A stretch of DNA of 18,562 nt, taken from assembly GCA_023150835.1 (NCBI GenBank), contig JAKLKB010000135.1, positions 1 to 18,562 of the forward strand, given 5' to 3'. Below the pieces are notes generated by a model. The model did not search any database. It saw nothing but the letters and a program-made list of their open reading frames with translations, and was not told the origin of the DNA. The position numbers and the translations under genes are program-made. Source of the DNA: Myxococcota bacterium. Its GTDB lineage: Bacteria; Myxococcota_C; UBA6777. This document shows positions 1,348-16,830 of the stretch, in pieces; the first letter of the stretch is position 1; every line of letters starts with the position of its first letter.

Positions 1348-1887
1348 ATGCTTCCACTCGCAGGTATCGCAGCAAAATTCGCAGCCCCTATCCTCGGTAA
1401 AGTGCTCGGTGGCGTTCTTGGTGGTGCAGGTGGCGGCGCAGGCGGCCTTCTCGGTGGTATCCTCGGCGGCGGTGGTCAAGGTCTCATGGGCGGCATCATG
1501 AAAATGCTCGGTGGTGCCAATCCCTTCGGCATGATCAACCAAGCCATGCAAGCCTTCCAAGGCTTGATGGGTGGCAATCAAGCAGGTGGCGCAGGCGGCC
1601 TTGGTGGCGCAGCAAACATGGGCCAGTTCCCCCAAATGCCCAACCCCGTCAATCCCACAGGAAACCTCGGCAACAACATCATGGGTCCCCAACAAGGTGC
1701 CATGAACCAACTCCAAGGTCTCCAAAACCAGATCGCTGGTACTGATATCGGCGCACTCAACAAAAACCCCGCTGGCATGATGAAGCTCCAAGAAGATATG
1801 CAAAAAATGCAAGAGATGTTTGAGACCATGTCCAAGATCTCCAAAAAACTCCACGACATCACCATGTCCATCCTCCGCAACATCTGA
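1348..1887 (+). CDS. Glycine-rich protein with SctF (type III needle)-like C-terminal module, copy 2
   Basis: A 179-residue protein. ATG 1348 is preceded by AAAGGAG (1334-1340) at seven bases. Residues 1-60 are hydrophobic and glycine-rich with an amphipathic start (MLPLAGIAAKFAAPILGK). Then come INQAMQAFQGLMGG, a glycine/alanine linker, FPQMPNPVNPTGNLG, and a 68-residue helical C-terminus (112-179). In that module IGALNKNPAGMMKLQ is followed by a long helix ending HDITMSILRNI. Placed without gaps against YscF as I remember it, N-P-A, L-Q, the late D-(I/L) and the final I-L line up, and the module is about the length of a needle subunit (roughly 80 residues). This suggests a helical hairpin around an NP turn. 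Needle function is a hypothesis: no other type III genes are in the window, and known needle proteins lack the glycine-rich N-terminus. No secretion signal is evident. Confidence 0.85.
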   Translation: MLPLAGIAAKFAAPILGKVLGGVLGGAGGGAGGLLGGILGGGGQGLMGGIMKMLGGANPFGMINQAMQAFQGLMGGNQAGGAGGLGGAANMGQFPQMPNPVNPTGNLGNNIMGPQQGAMNQLQGLQNQIAGTDIGALNKNPAGMMKLQEDMQKMQEMFETMSKISKKLHDITMSILRNI

Positions 1888-3098: not shown

Positions 3099-4097
3099 AT
3101 GTCACAAGAATTTTTTCGCCTTGGCGCGATCAACCTTGCGCCTTGTTGGGAGCCGATGATCCACCCTTCGATCCGCGCCCTAACCTTCCCACCCGTCCCC
3201 CAAGTCGATTGCAACAATTGCCGCATGGTGAATGCGCGCCTTTTTCCTGCGCATGTGAAATGTTGTAGTCGCACCCCTGATCTCCCTAATTTTTTGATCG
3301 GCTCGTTGCTTGTCGAAGGCCCCGAAACGCATGGAAAACAGGTGGTTCGCGATTGGATTGTCCAACGTCGAACCGATCCGTTGTATGCGCTGGTTCCGCC
3401 TCAACGCCGCCAAGAAGAATCGGGTCTTCATTCCTTTGAGGCTTGGCCTGTTTGCCCGATGTACAAGGAGGGTGGTTGTTCGATCTACGCCCACCGACCG
3501 TATGTTTGCATGGGATACCATTGCTTTTTTCCCGATCCTCCCGAACTGTACGCTTTTTGGAATAGCCTTTCTTCTTTGTTGGCTTTGATCTCTGTGTGCG
3601 CCTCGCAGTTTCTTGCGATCCGATGTGGTCTCGATACGCAAAGCTTTCGCCGCGCATGGGGCGCGTTTCCCAACGAAGAAGAGGCGTGGCCGGACAGTCA
3701 ACAGCTCGATCCCAACCTGCATCAGCAACTGTGGGCATCTCTTGGCGCACCTTCCGAATTTTACCAACGCTGTTATCGCTACATCCTCGATCACCGAGAG
3801 ACCATCCTTTACGAACTGGATCAATTCCGCCGCGAGCAGTTGATCCGCTTCCTTGCGGTCGAAGATCACCCCGATCCACTACGCGAACACGTGATCCGTC
3901 AACAACCCACCGAACCCTCGCCGATCGCCCCTGAACCAGAGGATCACAAACGATACATGAAAGAACTCATCCTTGGGCCTGATAAACATCGCTGGACTTT
4001 TCGCGAGATCGAAGGCCACGTCCTCTGGTATTATCACCGCGTCTTTGCAAAGTCCCATCCCTCCGATGTCTTCTCACCCGACGCACCCAATCCTTAA
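3099..4097 (+). CDS. YkgJ-like cysteine-cluster (putative metal-binding) protein
   Basis: A 332-residue protein. Cysteines cluster as DCNNC (38, 41), KCC (55, 56), C119 and GGCSIYAHRPYVCMGYHC (127, 137, 142). The pattern C-x-x-C, CC, then G-C-S-I-Y-x-x-R-P-x-x-C matches the CxxCxxCC family (YkgJ/UPF0153, PF03692), thought to bind zinc or iron or an iron-sulfur cluster; no enzymatic activity is established. The C-terminal 190 residues are predicted helical, rich in Glu, Arg and Trp, and not recognised. This protein is longer than simple YkgJ proteins, with about 60 residues between the CC pair and C119. No signal peptide is seen, so it is probably cytoplasmic. The stop lies 29 bases before the next ATG, suggesting an operon with the methyltransferase. 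A weak promoter candidate is TTGTAC at 3041 with TGTGCT 17 bases on. Confidence 0.8.
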   Translation: MSQEFFRLGAINLAPCWEPMIHPSIRALTFPPVPQVDCNNCRMVNARLFPAHVKCCSRTPDLPNFLIGSLLVEGPETHGKQVVRDWIVQRRTDPLYALVPPQRRQEESGLHSFEAWPVCPMYKEGGCSIYAHRPYVCMGYHCFFPDPPELYAFWNSLSSLLALISVCASQFLAIRCGLDTQSFRRAWGAFPNEEEAWPDSQQLDPNLHQQLWASLGAPSEFYQRCYRYILDHRETILYELDQFRREQLIRFLAVEDHPDPLREHVIRQQPTEPSPIAPEPEDHKRYMKELILGPDKHRWTFREIEGHVLWYYHRVFAKSHPSDVFSPDAPNP

Positions 4098-4126
4098 ATC
4101 TTCTCCACACAGGAAGGATCGTCGTG

Positions 4127-4882
4127 ATGTTGTTTCTCCAAGATCCCGCCGAATCAAAGCTACAACGGCTCTTTCAACGCGTTGTCTCCCATCTTCACCG
4201 CCTCACTTTTTCGCTCACCTTTCCTCTCTACGAATGGCTGTATCTTCTCTGGTCTTGCCCCGAGATGCTTCCGTCCCTTTGGCGGATCTTGAGTTTTTCG
4301 TGGGGGCGTGATCCCTATACCGCGATCACGCGGATGCCACACGATCTGCGCGAACACCGTCATCCCGATGATCTGGTGTACGGCGAGATCATCCTCCCCA
4401 CGTTTGATCGGATCTTGCGATCTCTTCAACTCGGAGCAACCGATCGCTTTGTCGATCTCGGATGTGGACGGGGCCGGCTTGTGATGATGGCCGCTGCAAG
4501 GGGGATTCGAGCGCATGGCATCGAGCTTGTCCCGCTGCATCTTCGCTGCGCCAAGTATGCCGCTTCACCCTATCTTCCGCTGGCCTCCTTTGAACAAGCC
4601 GATATCCTTCAGGCTGATCTTTCACAAGCGACCGTCTTTTGGGCTTCTGGAACTTGTTGGAGCGATCCCCTTCGCGAGCAGATCGCTGCGCGTATCGCGC
4701 AACTTCTCCCAAATACCCGCGTGATCTCCGTCTCCTCGCCGCTTCCTCACCCTCAACTGGAGACCCTTTGCACCTTCTACGGTTGGACCACATGGGGCCG
4801 CGACGCCTTCTTTCTTCAACGTGTCCTCCCCAAACCCCAAGAAGCCCTTCCACCCGCATCTTTCCCATCACTCGGGACTTGA
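4127..4882 (+). CDS. DOT1-like class I SAM-dependent methyltransferase
   Basis: A 251-residue protein. AGGAAGGA (4111-4118) precedes ATG 4127 at eight bases; a GTG at 4124 directly before it is an alternative start. Residues 30-60 are hydrophobic and Trp/Leu-rich, perhaps a membrane-associating helix. DDLVYGEIILPTFDRIL (81-97) precedes motif I VDLGCGRGR (109-117). GIEL (131-134) supplies the acidic residue expected to bind the SAM ribose, and QADILQADLS (157-166) fits the later motifs. The order VYGE then DLGxGxG resembles the DOT1 fold (PF08123) and related bacterial methyltransferases; it does not imply histone methylation. The substrate is unknown. It is probably co-transcribed with the cysteine-cluster gene 29 bases upstream. 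No clear intrinsic terminator follows; only a short GAGTTC/GAACTC inverted repeat (4917-4939) without a T-run is present. Confidence 0.85.
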   Translation: MLFLQDPAESKLQRLFQRVVSHLHRLTFSLTFPLYEWLYLLWSCPEMLPSLWRILSFSWGRDPYTAITRMPHDLREHRHPDDLVYGEIILPTFDRILRSLQLGATDRFVDLGCGRGRLVMMAAARGIRAHGIELVPLHLRCAKYAASPYLPLASFEQADILQADLSQATVFWASGTCWSDPLREQIAARIAQLLPNTRVISVSSPLPHPQLETLCTFYGWTTWGRDAFFLQRVLPKPQEALPPASFPSLGT

Positions 4883-5457: not shown

Positions 5458-6465
5458 ATGGTCAAATTTTTCTTCGGACAACATTTTTGGATCTTTATCG
5501 TGTTCTTTCTCACCAGCGCGAGCTACCTCAGCGCTCTGAGCGTCAATCATCTCTTGCGTCTTTCGATCAAGCCCGCTGCAAGCGCCCCATTGATCGCAAG
5601 TGAGGACGGCGATCTGCAACTCGCCAAAACCCGCAAAGATGCACGCGTGATCCTTCAAAGCAACAACATCTTCGACCCCAACGCCAAACCCATCACTCCC
5701 CAAGAAGCCGCAGCCATCGACAAATCCAAAGAGAAAAAACCAACCCCCAAAAAGATCGATGAGTTCGGTTGCCCTCCCGTCGACGAACAACGCGAATACC
5801 CTGAGTCCCAGATCCGAAACCTCTGGATCAAAGGAACCAGCGTCGCAAGCGATCCCCGCTACAATCTCGCCGCCTTCTATCTGGATGTCGAAAACGCCAA
5901 GCCCGTGTATGACCAAAAAGCACCTTGGCAAAAAACCACCCGCACCGTCGAGATCTTTCGGGTCGGCGATACCCTCGCCACGACACCTGCAAAGCTGTGT
6001 TTTATCGGTGCGCGCCGCGTGGTGTTGATCCATCGCAATACCCTCGAACAGATCTCCCTCGATCCCAAATCCAAAAAAGGTGCAAAACCCAAGCTATTCG
6101 GGGCTTTTGGAGTCGGGCAAACCGAAGAGGAATTCAAAGCCGATCGGGTCGATGATCGCACCATCCAACGCTCTCTTGTTCAAGACTGGCTCGCCAACCC
6201 CATGCAGCACGCCATGAGCGCTCGCGTCATGCCACACTACGAAGGCGGTCAATCCGCAGGCTTTCGCCTCGTTTGGATCAAAGAAGGCTCGATTTATTCC
6301 AAACTTGGCCTCCAAAGCGGCGATGTTCTCCAGCAGATCAACGGCAAAACTCTCTCCGTCGGTAGCGCCCTCGGCCTTATGTCCCAACTCCCCTTCGCCA
6401 AAAATCTCTCCGTCAACCTCATCCGCCAAGGCGTCCGCCAATCCATCAACTTCAATATCAAATGA
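5458..6465 (+). CDS. gspC: Type II secretion system protein GspC (inner-membrane, PDZ type)
   Basis: A 335-residue protein. ATG 5458 follows GGAG (5445-5448) at nine bases. It has a short cytoplasmic N-terminus, one transmembrane helix (10-28), a linker with SNNIFDPNAKP (68-78) recalling the N-L-F motif of GspC, and a Lys/Pro-rich spacer. Next is a homology-region domain (about 118-205: RNLWIKGTSVA, FRVGDTL, RRVVLIHRNTLEQISL), which in GspC contacts the secretin GspD. The C-terminal PDZ domain (about 255-335) has GFRLVWIKEGSIYSKLGL, SGDVLQQINGKTL and LIRQGV. The domain order and single membrane anchor are those of GspC, which links the inner-membrane platform to the secretin. No other gsp genes lie nearby. 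Other PDZ proteins such as DegS are less likely because there is no protease domain. No T-rich terminator is visible; a weak CCTCA/TGAGG stem lies at 6496-6511. Confidence 0.85.
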   Translation: MVKFFFGQHFWIFIVFFLTSASYLSALSVNHLLRLSIKPAASAPLIASEDGDLQLAKTRKDARVILQSNNIFDPNAKPITPQEAAAIDKSKEKKPTPKKIDEFGCPPVDEQREYPESQIRNLWIKGTSVASDPRYNLAAFYLDVENAKPVYDQKAPWQKTTRTVEIFRVGDTLATTPAKLCFIGARRVVLIHRNTLEQISLDPKSKKGAKPKLFGAFGVGQTEEEFKADRVDDRTIQRSLVQDWLANPMQHAMSARVMPHYEGGQSAGFRLVWIKEGSIYSKLGLQSGDVLQQINGKTLSVGSALGLMSQLPFAKNLSVNLIRQGVRQSINFNIK

Positions 6466-9600: not shown

Positions 9601-10037
9601 TCCTTCAAGCCTCCCGTAGCTTCCTGAGCTGGCAACTCAAAGACATGATCGCCGATGGCGACCGCCTCTATCTCAACGCCACCCGCGACTGGTACTATAT
9701 GCAAGAAAACAAGATCGAATGGTACGATCGCAGCGATACCCTCTCGATCTTCGATCTCTCCAAAAATACCTTCGCCGAGAAATTCTCCCAAGCCACCCGC
9801 ACCAGCAACATGCAACTCTCAGGTGTCCAAAATAACCGTCTCTTCATCCAACTCCCCGGTGAAGGTCTCTTGATCGCCGACGTTGCCGACGCCTCCGCAC
9901 CCAAAGCCCTCCACTTCGAGCGCACCCTCGGATGGGCACAAAACGTCGAACTCAGCGGTGATTACGCCTTTATCGCCTCGGGACACTTCGGTATCTACCA
10001 AGTCAGCCTCAACAAAGCCACCATCCCCACCCTCTAA
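6693..10037 (+). CDS. Large beta-propeller domain lipoprotein (Beta_propel family)
   Basis: A 1114-residue protein. ATG 6693 follows AAGGAG (6679-6684) at eight bases. Residues 1-25 are a lipoprotein signal with lipobox LSAC (lipidated C26). Residues 27-90 form a Pro/Glu/Gly/Asn-rich linker. From VEEADLYRMSGNLLFYLNTY onward it matches the secreted beta-propeller family PF09826. Repeated blades carry hydrophobic strands, then V-x-D-(I/V)-x-(N/D)-P (for example VFDVADPKQPK, IVDISDPKG, SVDITDGSNP), as in LVIVD repeats. A final blade has LLIADVADASAPKAL and AFIASGHFGIYQVSL. Two unusually aromatic patches occur: WYWWGW near residue 220 and PYYYFYCGWF near 780. It is probably anchored to the outer membrane; ligand and role are unknown. 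Residue +2 after the cysteine is Thr, so no inner-membrane retention Asp is present. TTGACA at 6629 could be a -35 box, but no matching -10 follows. Confidence 0.85.
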   Translation: MKPKRIFQQWTLTLSAALLGLWLSACTGEIPDPNETPTPGQKEFTTEELGNNSNGRSFDGASPEGQAAPNAGTAEPGANADAKEGAPSGRTGTVEEADLYRMSGNLLFYLNTYKGLTVFDVADPKQPKKISSLPVFGYPIEMFVNKNIVYALVRDALYMLNVNGKFEFHRRHVSQLVTIDISNPQTPVVLQRFDIKGQLREGVSRKIDDTVYVVSYTPRWYWWGWSYEQLERKEQVTVYSFNVANPTNITMVQQLDLLKETSTSKNWEDKGTQYSESSNFSDITLSATSNTLLVGEQWYHYKSAYNRNGSTTNWCERSQYENWQAMKINIVDISDPKGTIKLHTRFEYRGHMGDQFKQTYVYDDTTKKGTYYGIFQRNEWKRDSNNCNSERVVRNTLVSVDITDGSNPVVLHSLDFGKPNETVRGSTYDENRRVVYAITAVNTDPLYAISFADPKNLKVLSAVDGLSGDMNVFRFADSTRNFLMGIGRDTSSACTGFDQDSRSTNIAVSIMDVRDLNKVRLVQRKCVAIKGAQWVHSELNWNLDQAHKMLGMYSDKDVNLITLPVSYYSQNSTNGWWYSEYKSAIGIMRWDLSKYDDTKDEKQQNVLENIASMEHPKGSVKRTIIFKHQTLNERMVLNLSDTHLSLIDLSNLNSPSLLSTFELAPYIRTVYRFGKHLVEQVNLGQSYDDYNEFRVKEIGSTNINDASVLASFTVGKIQSVIRWKDYLVLFRYYQDPSKTNSKGYPEYDYNKSELVLYNFSNPLKPVMAGSTVIPRAFYPYYYFYCGWFDMRFGFDSYWYPYYNGTRGFVSTGTGISTILFQYDYQSRTSKQLLLTLDFTNPAKPTYQETTIPTNNNRQYMSLVSMDDNTFYITNREQIGTRNQNNQGFTIFRYYAERWVRGANGWASSGQINLPGRLSKAWAYNGKVKLLTNDQSYILRQVKNGNNTYNQYQSVFRLHLLEQSQDAKWAVLQASRSFLSWQLKDMIADGDRLYLNATRDWYYMQENKIEWYDRSDTLSIFDLSKNTFAEKFSQATRTSNMQLSGVQNNRLFIQLPGEGLLIADVADASAPKALHFERTLGWAQNVELSGDYAFIASGHFGIYQVSLNKATIPTL

Positions 10038-10398
10038 TCTCCCCCATCTACCGTCCTCTTCCCTCTCCTCTAGCCTTTCTCGTCTGGTTTCTCTCCCTCA
10101 ACTGTTTTTTTACTTTGGTGGTGCGGGGGTGGAACCCCACGCCCCGCCATAGACTTGCGCCCCTTGACCCCGTATCGGCGGGGCGAATAGACGTTTTTTC
10201 AAACCAACGTCTGCGCCGCTTGAAGTGTCGCAAACATGGGGGTTTTGGAAGGCGAGGGCTTGCATTCAGGGGGGGAGATGGTGATCTGCGATCCGAGTTT
10301 TTCGGGGAAGTGATCCGCGTGAGGCGGAGCAACGTAGACGGCTTGTCTTTCGCAATACAGCCGCGAAAACAAACGGCCCGAAAATACAGGAGGAATCC
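10038..10398. other. Spacer between the beta-propeller gene and hflX
   Basis: No gene is seen. It opens with about 75 bases that are almost all pyrimidine, with C over G, and no intrinsic hairpin; Rho-dependent termination is possible. A 10-bp stem with one bulge (10123-10147, GCGGGGGTGG paired with CCACGCCCCGC) follows the T-run. Bases 10162-10180 match 514-532 at 18 of 19 positions. The rest, up to the hflX ribosome binding site, has no recognisable promoter. Confidence 0.65.
10123..10147. repeat. GC-rich hairpin in the hflX upstream region
   Basis: GCGGGG-GTGG (10123-10132) pairs with CCAC-G-CCCCGC (10137-10147) around an AACC loop with one bulged G. It sits next to the 19-bp segment shared with 514-532, so the two may be parts of one dispersed intergenic repeat. 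Confidence 0.6.
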
Positions 10399-11856: not shown

Positions 11857-11972
11857 TACGAGATCCGCTCGTTGTGTGAGCGTAAAAATGTAGGGGCAGA
11901 CAGGTGTGGTTGCCCAATCACAGGGTGTCTCCGCGCCCATCTTCGATAACACATCTCGCGGATATCGTATTA
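11854..11972. mobile_element. 119-bp MITE-like element between convergent genes
   Basis: The ends TAATACGAGATCCGC (11854-11868) and GCGGATATCGTATTA (11958-11972) are inverted repeats matching at 14 of 15 positions. The interior has CGCTC/GAGCG and GGGGCAG...TTGCCC stems. The outermost TAA on each side is the stop codon of hflX (plus) and of the cysteine-repeat lipoprotein (minus). No protein is encoded. A related, eroded copy lies at 5287-5403. It may act as a bidirectional terminator through its long stem. Mobility is inferred from the ends and the second copy. Confidence 0.6.
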
Positions 11973-14900
11973 GCGAAGGCGGCGGATCACGGCGTTGTTG
12001 TAATCGGTAAAGAGAAGATCGCCGTTGGGGGCCAAGATCAGGCAGATGGGATAGTTGAGGAAGGCGTTCACGCCGATACCATCGCGGAATCCTGCGCGAG
12101 AATCTCCGCCTACAGAGGTGACATTGCCCGTTGTATCGAGTTTTCGGAGGCGGTTGTTGGTGCGCTCGCCGATAAACAAGTTTCCGTTGGCATCAAAGGC
12201 AAGGCCCACCGGATCTTGGAATCGTGCGGTGGCTGCGGGTCCATCGAGCAGTCCAGCCGTTCCGCTGCCTGCGACGGTCGTCACTTGGGCGAAGTTGGTC
12301 ACACCCAAGTTGACCATGCGGATACGGTCGTTGTACTGGTCCGCAACGTAGAGGTTCCCGTTGGGGCCGATGGCAAGAGCGCGTGGATAATAAAATCGTG
12401 CCCCTGTTCCGATACCATCAAGGAAACCGTAAGTTGTCCCTGCGAGGGTAGAGACGACACCGGCAGCGGTGATCATGCGGATGCGGTGGTTGTTGCTATC
12501 GCAGACGTAGAGGTTCCCAACGCTGTCGAAGAGCAGATGCGTCACACTTGAACTAAAGCGTGCGTTGGTCAGCGAGCCGTCTGTGACCCCCGAAGACGTT
12601 CCGCCCGCAAAGGTCGTCATATCGCCGTTGGCATCGATCTTTCGGATGCGATAGTTGCCGGAGTCGGCGATGAAAAGGTTGCCGCTGGCATCAAAGACAA
12701 GGGCTGTGGGGGAGTTGAGTCGGGCTTGGAGGCGCGGTCCATCAAAGAATCCAGCAGCGCTTGTTCCTGCAAAAGTTGTCACGTTGCCAGTCATCGCATC
12801 AACGCGGCGGATCACGTGGTTGCCTGTGTCGGCGATGTACAGGTTGCCGCTGCTGTCATAGGCCATGCCTTGCGGATTATTGAATCGAGCAAGTGTGCTG
12901 CTTCCGTTGGTGAAACCTCGGAAGAAGCCGCGCCCGGCGTAGGTCGTCACGTTGGCTTGAAGGTCGATCTTTCGGATGCGATGATTTTCGCTATCCGCGA
13001 CATACAAAAAGCCGCTGCTGTCGGACTTGATGCTAAAGGGGCCGCTGAATCGAGCGGCGGTGCCGTTGCCATCGATGAAGTCGCTTGTGGAGGTCGATCC
13101 GCCTGCGTACAGGATCACGTCGTAGGTGGTACCGTTGAGGTGGATGCGGCGGATCGAGTTGTAGCGTTCGTCTGCGACGTAGAGATAGCCTGCGGAGGTT
13201 ATGGCCACATCGTAAGGATAATAAAAGCGTGCGGAACTACCGATGCCATTGGTGTTTCCAGCAGTCCCTATCCCTGCAATCGTTGTCACGTTGCCGGTAG
13301 TGTCGATACGACGGATGCGGTGGTTGTTGGTGTCGGCAACATAGACATCGCCGTTGCTGGCGACGACAAGACCACGAGGATAGTTGAATTGCGCGGTGGC
13401 AGCAGGGCCATCCAAAAAGCCGGCGATGCTTGTTCCCGCATAAGTTGTCACGTTGCCGAGCGTATCGACTTTTCGGATGGCGTTGTTTCCGTATTCGGCG
13501 ATGTAAAGGTTGCCTTGGGTATCTGTGGCAAGGCCGTGAGGATTGCGTAAACGTGCGGTGGTGAGGGCGTCTCCGTTGACATAACCGATCGTTCCTGTGC
13601 CGGCATAAGTGGTCACGTTGCCGGTGGTGTCGATTTTTCGGATACGGTGGTTGTTGTAATCGGCGACAAAGACGTTGCCAAACGCATCCACCGCGATCCC
13701 TGTGGGGGCGTTAAAAGAGGCGGTGTGTGCGGGTCCGTTGAGCATGCCCGCGATGCCGTTTCCTGCGATAGTCGTGACATTGCCGTTGGTATCGATTTTT
13801 CGGATGCGGTGGTTGTTGTAATCGGCGACAAAGACGTTGCCAGCGGCATCGACGGCCACAGCATAAGGGGTATAGAAGTTGGCGATGCTACCGCCTCCAT
13901 CACGCAGTTGTGGGGTTCCGACGATCGTATCCATCACGTTGCCGCTGGCGCATTGGCCTTGGAAGCAATGCGTGGTGGGGGAACAACCATTTCCGCAGCT
14001 CCCGCAGTTTTTGTCGTCTTGGAGGGTGTCTGTGCAAGCGGTCCCGCAAACAGTCTTTCCGACGGGGCATTCGCAGACGCCGCTTTCGCAGGATTGCGAG
14101 GCAAGACAGGCATTTCCGCAAGAACCGCAATTGTTTTTGTCTGTTGTGGTGTTCGAGCACACGCCGTTGCAACGGGTGGTTCCGACGGGACAGGTACATT
14201 GTCCTGTTTGGCAGAACTGACCGCCACCACAGAGATTTCCGCATTGTCCGCAGTGAGCGGGATTGGTTTGGGTGTCGACGCAGACGTTGCTACAAGCGGT
14301 GAGAGGGGCGTTGCAGCCGCACGTTCCAGCGAGGCACAGCAGGTTGTTGGCGCAAACATTCCCGCATGATCCGCAGTGGCTTTTGTTGGTTTGGCCGTCG
14401 ACGCAAGTCGCGCTGCAATAGAGGAGGTTGTTGGGGCAGAGGCATTGACCGCCTTGGCAGGTGCGACCATTGGTGCAGATCGTCCCGCAGCCACCGCAAT
14501 TGTTGTTGTCCGTTTGGTAATCGCGGCACTGGTTGGCGCAGAAGTTTTGACCTGTGGGGCAGGTGCAAGCCCCTGTTTGGCAGATGCGACCGCCTGTACA
14601 AGCGTTGTTGCAACCGCCGCAATGGTCTTTATCGGTTTGGTAGTCACGGCATTGTGCGTTGCAGAAGTCTTGTCCTGTGGGGCAGTTACACACGCGGTTT
14701 TGGCAGACACGGCCTCCCGTACAGGCATTTCCACAAGTGCCGCAGTGGCTGTTGTTTTGGATGATATCGACGCATTGGTTGCCGCAAAAGCCTTCGCCTT
14801 GGGGGCAGACACATTGTCCATTTTGGCAGGATTGGCCCGTACCGCAGGCGTTTGCACACGCTCCGCAGTTCGCAACGTTGATTTGCAGATCGAGGCATTG

Positions 14901-16763
14901 GCCATTGCAGAAGGTTTGGCCTTGGGTGCAGCGGCATTGCCCGTTTTGGCAGAATTGGCCGCCAGTACAGGCGTTTGAACACGCTCCGCAGTTGGCGACA
15001 TCGGATTGTCCGTCAACACAGCGACTGTTGCAAAAGAGCAGACCATCGGGGCATTTGCACGCGCCTTTTTCACAGGCTTGTCCGAGTGGGCAGGCGGTGC
15101 CGCATTGTCCGCAGTGTAAGCGATTGAGCTGGAGGTCGGTGCAACGGCCATCACAGCGCACCAACGGCGATGGGCAGACGCAAGCCGCCGCTTGACAAGA
15201 CTCTCCCGGGCTACAAGCGGATCCGCACTTTCCGCAATGAAGCTCGTTGGTTTGGGTGTCGATGCAACCGCCAAAACACGCGCTTGGGGTGCTTGGGGGA
15301 CATGCGCTGATACAAGTTCCTTGGGAGCAGTATTGGCCTTGTGGGCAGAGATTCCCGCAGTTTCCGCAGTTTGCCGCATCGGCTTGGACATCAATGCAGC
15401 GTTTGTTGCATTCGAGCTGCCCTGTGGGGCATTTGCAGATCGCGTTGTCGCAAAGCTGCCCGTCGGGACAGGCTTGGCCGCATCCGCCGCAGTGTAGGCT
15501 GCTTTCGTTGGTGTTAAAGCATCCACCAAGACAAGTTGTGGGGGTTCGAGCGGGACACGACAGCACACAAGCACCGTCGTTGCAACGCTGTCCTGCGGGG
15601 CAAGCTTGGCCACATCCACCGCAGTGAGCGCCGTTGCTTTGGGTATCGATGCAGCTTCCGTTGCAATCGGTCAGTCCGGGGGCGCATTGGCACTTGCCTT
15701 GACGACAGATCGCGCCGATCCCGCACTTGTTTCCGCACGATCCGCAGTGTGCAACATCGTTGTCAAGCAGCGCACAATAAGTATCGCAGAAGGCGTAGCC
15801 TTGGGGACAAGGGTTGATACACGCACCGCTTCGGCAAGTTTCGCCGCTGGGACAGGTGGTTCCGCACTTTCCGCAGTGTTTGGGATCGGTTTGGGGGTTG
15901 GCGCAAGTACCGCTACAAGGGATCTCGCCTTGGGGGCAGTTGAGTTGGCAGGTCTTGGCAACACAGACTTCGCCGTTTGCACAGGCTTTGTCGCATCCAC
16001 CGCAATGTTGGGGACTCGTTTGGATATCGACGCAAGAGGTTCCACAGCGGGTTTCGCCAGCTTTGCAGGGTTGGACGCAAGCCCCTTTTTCGCAAGCGTC
16101 TCCTTGGGGACAGAGTTTGTCGCAAGCCCCACAGTGCGAGGTGTTGGTTTGGGTATCGACACACGAAGTTCCGCAAATTGTTTCTGTGGAGCCGCAACCG
16201 GCCTTGCATACGCCCGCTTGGCAAGATTCGTTGGCTGTGCAAGCTTTGCCGCAGCCGCCACAGTGAGCCGAGTTGGTTTGAGTGTTGACACAAGTCCCGT
16301 TGCAATCGGTCTCATCTGCTTTACAAGTGGGCGTGACTTTCTTTTTGCAAGCACCGGCCTCGCAGGATTCATCGGAGGCGCAGGCTTTTGCGCAAGCGCC
16401 ACAATGGGCGGGGCTGGTTTTGGTATTGACGCAAGTCCCGCTACAATCGGTCTCATCAGCTTTGCAAGTGGGCGTGACCTTTTTTTTGCAAGCACCGGCC
16501 TCACAAGATTCGTCGGAGGCGCAGGCTTTTGCGCACACGCCACAATGGGCGGGACTGGTTTGGGTATCGACGCAGGCTTCGCCACAAGTGAGCTTGGGAG
16601 GGGGGCAGACACAGGCTCCTGCCTGACAGGTTTTTCCCGATGTACAGGGCTTGCTATCGCTGCAAGCCTCGGGCGGTGAGGTCGGTTCGCAAGCGATCAA
16701 GATCACGGGCAGCCACAAAAAGGCGAAGAGACGCATCAGCAAGTTTCGAGGTGCGCAATACAT
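11970..16763 (-). CDS. Giant lipoprotein: 21 eight-cysteine repeats followed by 12 NHL repeats
   Basis: A 1597-residue protein. On the minus strand GGGAGAG lies six bases before ATG at 16763-16761; an upstream TTG in frame (16778) overlaps that ribosome binding site and is rejected. The signal is MYCAPRNLLMRLFAFLWLPV plus lipobox LIAC (C25). A half repeat follows, then 21 repeats of about 41-47 residues (53-938), each with eight cysteines in the plan C-P-x-G-x-x-x-C-x-x-x-C-x-D-x-Q-T, (H/N)CGxCGxxC, C, C: near 170 cysteines, presumably disulfide-bonded. Such arrays are common in Myxococcota, where from memory they are often mislabelled tryptophan synthase alpha chain. Residues 941-1597 hold 12 NHL repeats (VADYNNHRIRKID, GNVTTxAG), enough for two six-bladed propellers. 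Probably a rigid surface stalk bearing a binding head; ligand unknown. It is divergent from the kinase gene. Confidence 0.88.
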   Translation of the reverse strand: MYCAPRNLLMRLFAFLWLPVILIACEPTSPPEACSDSKPCTSGKTCQAGACVCPPPKLTCGEACVDTQTSPAHCGVCAKACASDESCEAGACKKKVTPTCKADETDCSGTCVNTKTSPAHCGACAKACASDESCEAGACKKKVTPTCKADETDCNGTCVNTQTNSAHCGGCGKACTANESCQAGVCKAGCGSTETICGTSCVDTQTNTSHCGACDKLCPQGDACEKGACVQPCKAGETRCGTSCVDIQTSPQHCGGCDKACANGEVCVAKTCQLNCPQGEIPCSGTCANPQTDPKHCGKCGTTCPSGETCRSGACINPCPQGYAFCDTYCALLDNDVAHCGSCGNKCGIGAICRQGKCQCAPGLTDCNGSCIDTQSNGAHCGGCGQACPAGQRCNDGACVLSCPARTPTTCLGGCFNTNESSLHCGGCGQACPDGQLCDNAICKCPTGQLECNKRCIDVQADAANCGNCGNLCPQGQYCSQGTCISACPPSTPSACFGGCIDTQTNELHCGKCGSACSPGESCQAAACVCPSPLVRCDGRCTDLQLNRLHCGQCGTACPLGQACEKGACKCPDGLLFCNSRCVDGQSDVANCGACSNACTGGQFCQNGQCRCTQGQTFCNGQCLDLQINVANCGACANACGTGQSCQNGQCVCPQGEGFCGNQCVDIIQNNSHCGTCGNACTGGRVCQNRVCNCPTGQDFCNAQCRDYQTDKDHCGGCNNACTGGRICQTGACTCPTGQNFCANQCRDYQTDNNNCGGCGTICTNGRTCQGGQCLCPNNLLYCSATCVDGQTNKSHCGSCGNVCANNLLCLAGTCGCNAPLTACSNVCVDTQTNPAHCGQCGNLCGGGQFCQTGQCTCPVGTTRCNGVCSNTTTDKNNCGSCGNACLASQSCESGVCECPVGKTVCGTACTDTLQDDKNCGSCGNGCSPTTHCFQGQCASGNVMDTIVGTPQLRDGGGSIANFYTPYAVAVDAAGNVFVADYNNHRIRKIDTNGNVTTIAGNGIAGMLNGPAHTASFNAPTGIAVDAFGNVFVADYNNHRIRKIDTTGNVTTYAGTGTIGYVNGDALTTARLRNPHGLATDTQGNLYIAEYGNNAIRKVDTLGNVTTYAGTSIAGFLDGPAATAQFNYPRGLVVASNGDVYVADTNNHRIRRIDTTGNVTTIAGIGTAGNTNGIGSSARFYYPYDVAITSAGYLYVADERYNSIRRIHLNGTTYDVILYAGGSTSTSDFIDGNGTAARFSGPFSIKSDSSGFLYVADSENHRIRKIDLQANVTTYAGRGFFRGFTNGSSTLARFNNPQGMAYDSSGNLYIADTGNHVIRRVDAMTGNVTTFAGTSAAGFFDGPRLQARLNSPTALVFDASGNLFIADSGNYRIRKIDANGDMTTFAGGTSSGVTDGSLTNARFSSSVTHLLFDSVGNLYVCDSNNHRIRMITAAGVVSTLAGTTYGFLDGIGTGARFYYPRALAIGPNGNLYVADQYNDRIRMVNLGVTNFAQVTTVAGSGTAGLLDGPAATARFQDPVGLAFDANGNLFIGERTNNRLRKLDTTGNVTSVGGDSRAGFRDGIGVNAFLNYPICLILAPNGDLLFTDYNNAVIRRLR
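11973..13943 (-). repeat. Coding array of 12 NHL repeats
   Basis: Twelve units of roughly 50-60 residues are each marked by (V/L)(F/Y)(V/I)AD-x-x-N-x-R-I-R-(K/R)-(I/V)-D, then a G-N-V-T-T-x-A-G strand and a DG-x-x-x-x-A-R-F connector. The last unit ends at the stop (DYNNAVIRRLR). Unit 9 has VCDSNN and unit 11 IGERTN in place of the usual VAD. Confidence 0.9.
13950..16607 (-). repeat. Coding array of 21 cysteine-rich repeats
   Basis: Each unit is about 123-141 bases and encodes eight cysteines. Units 8-21 have the tightest 41-43-residue period; units 1-3 are longer, with a KKKVTPTCKADETDC spacer. Units differ enough that most duplications look old, except the neighbouring 141-bp pair at 16291-16572. 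Confidence 0.9.
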
Positions 16764-16769
16764 TTGAAT

Positions 16770-16776
16770 CTCTCCC
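16770..16776 (-). promoter_or_regulatory. Ribosome binding site of the cysteine-repeat/NHL lipoprotein
   Basis: The minus strand reads GGGAGAG, six bases before ATG 16763. This fixes the start five codons inside the longest open frame. Confidence 0.75.
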
Positions 16777-16830
16777 AAAATGAGTACAAAACAAGGGACG
16801 ACGCAAGGATGGTGTGCCTTGTAAGAAAGA

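Follow-up and report, generated by a model that had tools for sequence, protein, structure and literature searches.

The window analysed here (18,562 nucleotides) is the entire contig JAKLKB010000135.1 (C76) of the Myxococcota bacterium assembly GCA_023150835.1, a 7.56-Mb draft of 239 contigs with 93% completeness (genome G000). Its left end is occupied by three tandem paralogous genes whose products join a glycine-rich N-terminus to a C-terminal helical module resembling SctF, the needle subunit of type III secretion systems (T3SSs). These genes form family A, one of three paralogue families (A, B and C) that have a C-terminal module in common and were delineated in a comparison group of five genomes, G000 to G004, where G001 is the sister metagenome-assembled genome KLAP109 and G003 a draft of 930 contigs.

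Organization of the family A genes

All three genes lie on the forward strand. Copy 1 (1-336) has lost its 5' end at the contig edge, copy 2 (1348-1887) codes for 179 amino acids (aa) arranged as a Gly-rich N-terminus, a linker and the SctF-like C-terminal hairpin, and copy 3 (2341-2859) codes for 172 aa with an N-terminus that has diverged from that of copy 2. The module corresponds to residues 112-179 of copy 2 (1681-1884) and was found at 130-333 and 2653-2856 in copies 1 and 3, respectively. These last 68 residues, already described as common to the paralogues in a preliminary description made from the sequence alone, displayed 100% protein identity across the three copies, with 2 to 4 nucleotide differences per pair, all of them synonymous. 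Copies 2 and 3 have diverged in the remainder of their sequence (34 of 165 aligned codons with non-synonymous differences), and copy 3 compared between G000 and G001 displayed 17 synonymous and 2 non-synonymous codon differences. The hydrophobic Gly-rich N-terminus noticed at the outset was equally borne out, since residues 1 to about 75 of copy 2 contain 33% Gly and neither Cys nor acidic residues. Each copy is followed by a terminator-like hairpin, recognized by pattern only, at 369-383, 1922-1936 (identical to the former) and 2897-2911 (near-identical). A pattern search for sigma-70 promoters found none.

Contig C113 of the same genome carries at 3-170, on the reverse strand and directly behind sctU, the beginning of another family A gene, which runs off the contig. 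This fragment ends in GGGNIF, copy 1 starts with AFQGLMGGG, and the first KLAP109 copy (L012, 9824-10309) contains GGGNIFGMLNQAMQAFQGLMGGG, which bridges the two. The simplest reading of these sequences is that the C113 fragment is the absent 5' part of copy 1, one gene having been split by an assembly break; an array of three copies is therefore probable. Elsewhere in the group, G004 displayed one family A copy behind sctU and one at another location, and G002 displayed copies at several contig edges.

Needle similarity of the C-terminal module

Comparison with 24,736 Pfam models (reporting limit E<=10) returned a single match to the complete copy 2, the needle family PF09392 (T3SS_needle_F), at E 2.1e-4. 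The E-values for copies 1 and 3 were 5.7e-5 and 3.5e-4, and that for residues 116-179 alone was 3.1e-5. The needle model TIGR02105, among the NCBIfam models that were compared as well, also matched (E 7.1e-4 and 2.7e-4), and both alignments reached the final profile position. None of nine shuffled tails (five fully shuffled, four pattern-preserving) matched PF09392. The needle family was thus matched by profile, though below the curated cut-offs (see below).

In a phmmer search of a single tail against PDB, the best match was a 43-residue chain of 7y6c, but at E 0.14. Tail residues 27-67 aligned without gaps to residues 1-41 of this chain, which reproduced the gap-free line-up with needle subunits from the N-P turn onward that the preliminary description had proposed. 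The molecule name given in 7y6c is needle co-chaperone, and the chain would represent the C-terminal half of a needle. Two lineage profiles were built, A4 from family A and A6 from families A, B and C. With A6 the needle-like chain 7y6c_F was again the best match among 177,635 PDB sequences, now at E 7.9e-4; the reversed profile gave an unrelated protein as its best match (E 0.038) and the column-shuffled profile gave none.

AlphaFold2 predicted two helices in the 68-aa tail, at residues 3-19 and 30-67, with a mean predicted local distance difference test (pLDDT) of 73 and a predicted template modelling score of 0.37. The turn at N-P and the length of helix two agreed with the preliminary description, and the predicted fold was a helical hairpin, at moderate confidence and with no Foldseek match. 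The tail model is consistent with a needle-type hairpin and proves nothing by itself. One detail of the preliminary description lost ground, as the late Asp put forward as a needle feature was not conserved in the sister genera.

Two other assignments were rejected. Family A did not match the SctI inner rod models PF17001 and TIGR02497; a separate SctI (P0004, PF17001 E 7.9e-6) is encoded before sctJ in G000, and hhalign found no homology between it and the tail. A WXG100 or type VII substrate was likewise discarded, no WXG100 model of Pfam or NCBIfam having matched at E<=10.

Type III secretion genes and families B and C

Export genes of a non-flagellar T3SS are present in G000, including SctJ, SctV and SctN, which the preliminary description had proposed to look for. 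The only full FHIPEP protein of this genome is a non-flagellar SctV and not FlhA (hrcV 785 bits, cut-off 692). Contig C132 displayed the order FliA/WhiG-type sigma factor, sctI, sctJ, a gene for a FliG_M protein at the position of sctK, sctL, sctN, sctO (PF16789 E 2e-22) and a gene of FliK/SctP type with a Flg_hook domain (PF02120 E 1.7e-11), so that SctI, J, L, N, O, P and V are all encoded in this genome. SctQ, R, S and U passed the profile cut-offs in G001. Parts of flagellar type occurred in this non-flagellar system, namely FliO between sctQ and sctR, the FliA/WhiG sigma factor and FliG_M (L012 5009-6235; L017 131-883 and 2788-3849). On contig C25 of G000, a single protein combines NadC (quinolinate phosphoribosyltransferase) with the cytoplasmic C-terminal domain of FHIPEP (SctV/FlhA; L016 1157-3523; PF01729 E 7e-61, PF00771 E 4e-40).

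A family A gene lay immediately downstream of sctU in all four genomes where sctU was detected, which represent three genera: G000 (C113), G001 (L012), G002 (L050) and G004 (L037). The fifth genome, G003, holds two family A homologues. The order sctQ-fliO-sctR-S-T-U-A was checked by profiles in G001 and deduced from open reading frame (ORF) similarity only in G002. On an unbroken 262-kb contig of G004 the order was sctT-sctU-A-methyltransferase-GspC-like gene, and sctQ, R and S do not adjoin sctT. Family A was thus found to be encoded with a non-flagellar T3SS, and this contextual evidence is graded stronger than the sequence similarity.

To the right of the array, the window carries a DOT1-like methyltransferase gene (4124-4882, forward strand) and a second GspC-like gene (5458-6465, forward strand; NF041515 157 bits, cut-off 150) outside the type II secretion system (T2SS) operon. 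The former also follows needle-like genes in G004 (L037 10058-10771) and G002 (L096 173-832) and is a conserved right flank of the locus; the latter keeps the same gene order in G004, where its counterpart (L037 10998-12026) is 40% identical. Both genes match those behind the sctU-A pair of G004, and the window accordingly covers the right half of the locus. The GspC-like protein, at the T3SS locus, lies apart from the T2SS GspC (C160; L106 9906-10868), and G000 also codes for an orphan GspD-type secretin (C128; L105 8129-10402) that is 46% identical to the GspD encoded in the T2SS operon (C160). The GspC-like protein of the window may possibly be linked to an outer-membrane secretin, and by analogy with Chlamydia the T3SS might possibly have borrowed a T2SS-type outer-membrane channel.

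Several neighbouring genes deserve mention. Positions 3099-4097, which separate the needle array from the methyltransferase gene, encode a conserved Cys-rich protein without Pfam match that is also present in KLAP109 (L011). On the reverse strand, positions 11970-16778 hold a 1602-aa ORF with tandem Cys-rich repeats followed by NHL-like repeats, and long open antisense frames. In G003, a family A gene is closely preceded by one for an FHA-domain sigma-54 activator (L035 8034-9458), the FHA region of which was additionally matched by the model of the YscD cytoplasmic domain of T3SSs.

Profile A4 further uncovered the C-terminal pattern in two other families. Family B (172-180 aa) was found in four genomes at E 2.5e-4 to 0.035, with a hydrophobic, Ala/Gly-rich N-terminus and a needle-like tail (L070 9600-10142 in G004, L074 about 9655-10170 on the reverse strand in G002, and L066 1108-1626); in G000 it is located elsewhere (C113:66428-66577). 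Long family C proteins (320-440 aa) with a needle-like tail were found at E 0.003 to 0.026 (L091 1346-2671, L072 4323-5420, L071 9732-10706), with an additional member on C183 of G000. Families A, B and C have mainly their last ~45 residues in common and differ in their N-termini, and hhalign of A4 with the family B alignment matched the final 36 residues at E 1.2e-6. Profile A6 drew part of its members from these weak hits of the initial round (E 2.5e-4 to 0.035), and its high scores on B and C are therefore circular. This does not apply to the hhalign comparison, the location of the genes or the PDB match. Neither family B nor family C displayed a Pfam match to needle or translocator families.

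In G004 and G002, family B occurs after a 130-136-aa gene and before a tetratricopeptide repeat (TPR) gene, whose G002 product matches LcrH/SycD and CdsG models (CdsG E 1.4e-10). A 129-155-aa gene, a sigma gene, sctJ-K-L-N and P homologues come next, according to ORF order and similarity. This corresponds to the classical position of sctF, as in yscE-F-G and cdsE-F-G. Family C genes lie near LcrH-like TPR genes in G001 and G004; their N-terminus is EF-hand-like and presumably reminiscent of HrpF/NopX (NolX-like), a likeness that no Pfam match supports.

Interpretation and relation to known systems

SctF subunits are exported and polymerise, their C-terminal helix lining the channel. Taken together, the sequences and gene positions suggest that family A proteins are probably exported subunits of the needle or of a distal filament, in a non-flagellar T3SS whose needle family is modular. 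Module homology within the lineage, SctF similarity above controls and the link to sct genes were computed here; export, polymerisation, orientation, co-assembly and membrane contact of family A are what we infer. The earlier suggestion of a needle-like or filament-forming secreted subunit with an extra N-terminus was upheld as needle-like by the profile match, the hairpin model of moderate confidence and the presence of export genes, with the closest homologues directly behind sctU; each of these is the opposite of an outcome that had been named as refuting the suggestion. The SctN/SctV/SctU machinery would export family A, the C-terminal hairpin would drive assembly into the needle or distal filament with its second helix lining the channel, and the hydrophobic Gly-rich N-terminus would be exposed on the outer face of the filament or at the tip, within reach of a target membrane that it could touch or enter. 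Family B would likewise take part in the needle or distal filament, with its Gly/Ala-rich N-terminus outside or at the tip. One C-terminal module would thereby be displayed by several proteins with different N-termini, i.e. A (behind sctU, in one to three copies), B (ahead of the TPR gene, at the sctF position) and the long C. The FliK/SctP-type protein of the cluster would fit a length-controlled appendage.

A number of results weigh against this reading. PF09392 scores were 21-24.5 bits for a curated cut-off of 29.4, and the TIGR02105 score was also under its own. Family A homologues of the sister genera G003 and G004, taken alone, gave no needle-family match. The tail model reached moderate confidence only, the full-length model was poor (pLDDT 52), and Foldseek found no match to either in PDB. 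Only partial matches below cut-off were obtained in the genome with SctC models (secretin domain) and SctD models (FHA type). Moreover, the classical sctF slot is held by family B, which has no needle-family match in Pfam, and the sctE-F-G neighbourhood was not found around family A, so that family A may be an accessory subunit. Strict SctF membership is not claimed, because of the sub-threshold scores, the size of the copies (172 and 179 aa, against ~80 aa for SctF) and their non-canonical position. Either family could form the shaft, A being nearer to SctF in sequence and B occupying its slot.

Family A could instead be a harpin-like tip or translocator protein, docking by its SctF-like tail on a family B needle and inserting its Gly-rich N-terminus into the target membrane, which we consider possible though on balance improbable. 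The location of family B beside a CdsG/LcrH-like TPR gene would agree with it, but the needle-profile match belongs to A and not to B, and no LcrH-type gene was seen beside A. The composition of the family A N-terminus is suggestive too, as it resembles that of harpins, yet family B also has a hydrophobic Ala/Gly-rich N-terminus. Variable N-termini with identical tails, and a module that family C presents as appendable to other N-termini, would suit a tip protein; multiple copies with homogenised tails would suit a shaft subunit equally well.

It is unlikely that family A proteins are non-polymerising substrates of the T3SS (effector-like or periplasmic) whose likeness to needles is confined to a helix for export or chaperone binding. 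The ~45 residues in which the three families are mainly alike could be a recognition tail, but T3SS export signals are usually N-terminal, the SctF similarity spans the hairpin up to the exact C-terminus, and the location behind sctU is constant across three genera. Shuffle and reverse controls, as well as the independent and repeated position behind sctU, make a chance likeness of a Met/Gln-rich amphipathic helix to SctF, devoid of any type III secretion role, highly improbable, even though the profile scores are sub-threshold and coiled-coil families were also weakly matched.

Compared with SctF needles (YscF, MxiH, PrgI, EscF, CdsF), family A shares the helix-(N-P)-helix module, an alignment to the exact C-terminus and the association with sct genes. 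It differs by ~100 extra hydrophobic Gly-rich N-terminal residues, three tandem copies, scores below curated cut-offs and a position behind sctU instead of beside sctG/sctI. Harpins and translocators (HrpZ, Hpa1, HrpF/NopX) come to mind through the Gly-rich, Cys-free character of family A, a presumed likeness that has no counterpart in Pfam matches to these families. Flagellar axial proteins (rod, hook and flagellin, with shared D0/D1 ends) similarly combine one polymerising module with varied added domains, whereas the module here is SctF-like. Chlamydial T3SSs (cdsE-cdsF-cdsG, with a T2SS-like secretin) are approached by family B followed by a CdsG-matching TPR gene and by the orphan GspD-type secretin; in contrast, family B has 172-180 aa with an Ala/Gly-rich N-terminus, families A and C are additional, and the secretin link is only a candidate.

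Like the T3SS* or 'Myxo' non-flagellar T3SS, the present system is non-flagellar, belongs to a group deposited as Myxococcota and displayed no SctC over cut-off. That system was reported without SctF (PMC3459982, PMC12075869), whereas needle-module genes are present here. The myxococcal T3SS was described as devoid of needle, secretin and translocon (PMC3459982), the ancestral SctF having probably been lost (Abby and Rocha, PMC3459982), and the last common ancestor was proposed to have had an SctF structure without secretin (PMC3459982). The M. xanthus T3SS* was called needleless, its delivery route being an open question (PMC12075869), and Bradymonadia were assigned a T3SS* as well (PMC11509652). 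None of the papers covered by our literature search reported a needle in this phylum. The present T3SS is not claimed to be the Myxococcus T3SS*. We tentatively propose, as a conceivable but less than even prospect, that the external conduit is built from at least three SctF-module proteins (A, B and C), as a needle counterpart of the flagellar axial family, and that 'needleless' Myxococcota T3SSs may have needle proteins which standard profiles miss because of divergence and long Gly-rich N-termini. Needles can hide below profile cut-offs behind such N-termini, and the kind of T3SS called needleless in the predator Myxococcus may here have a needle of unusual, multi-part form. Needle-module genes beside export genes in a Myxococcota-labelled lineage make the question of SctF loss directly testable.
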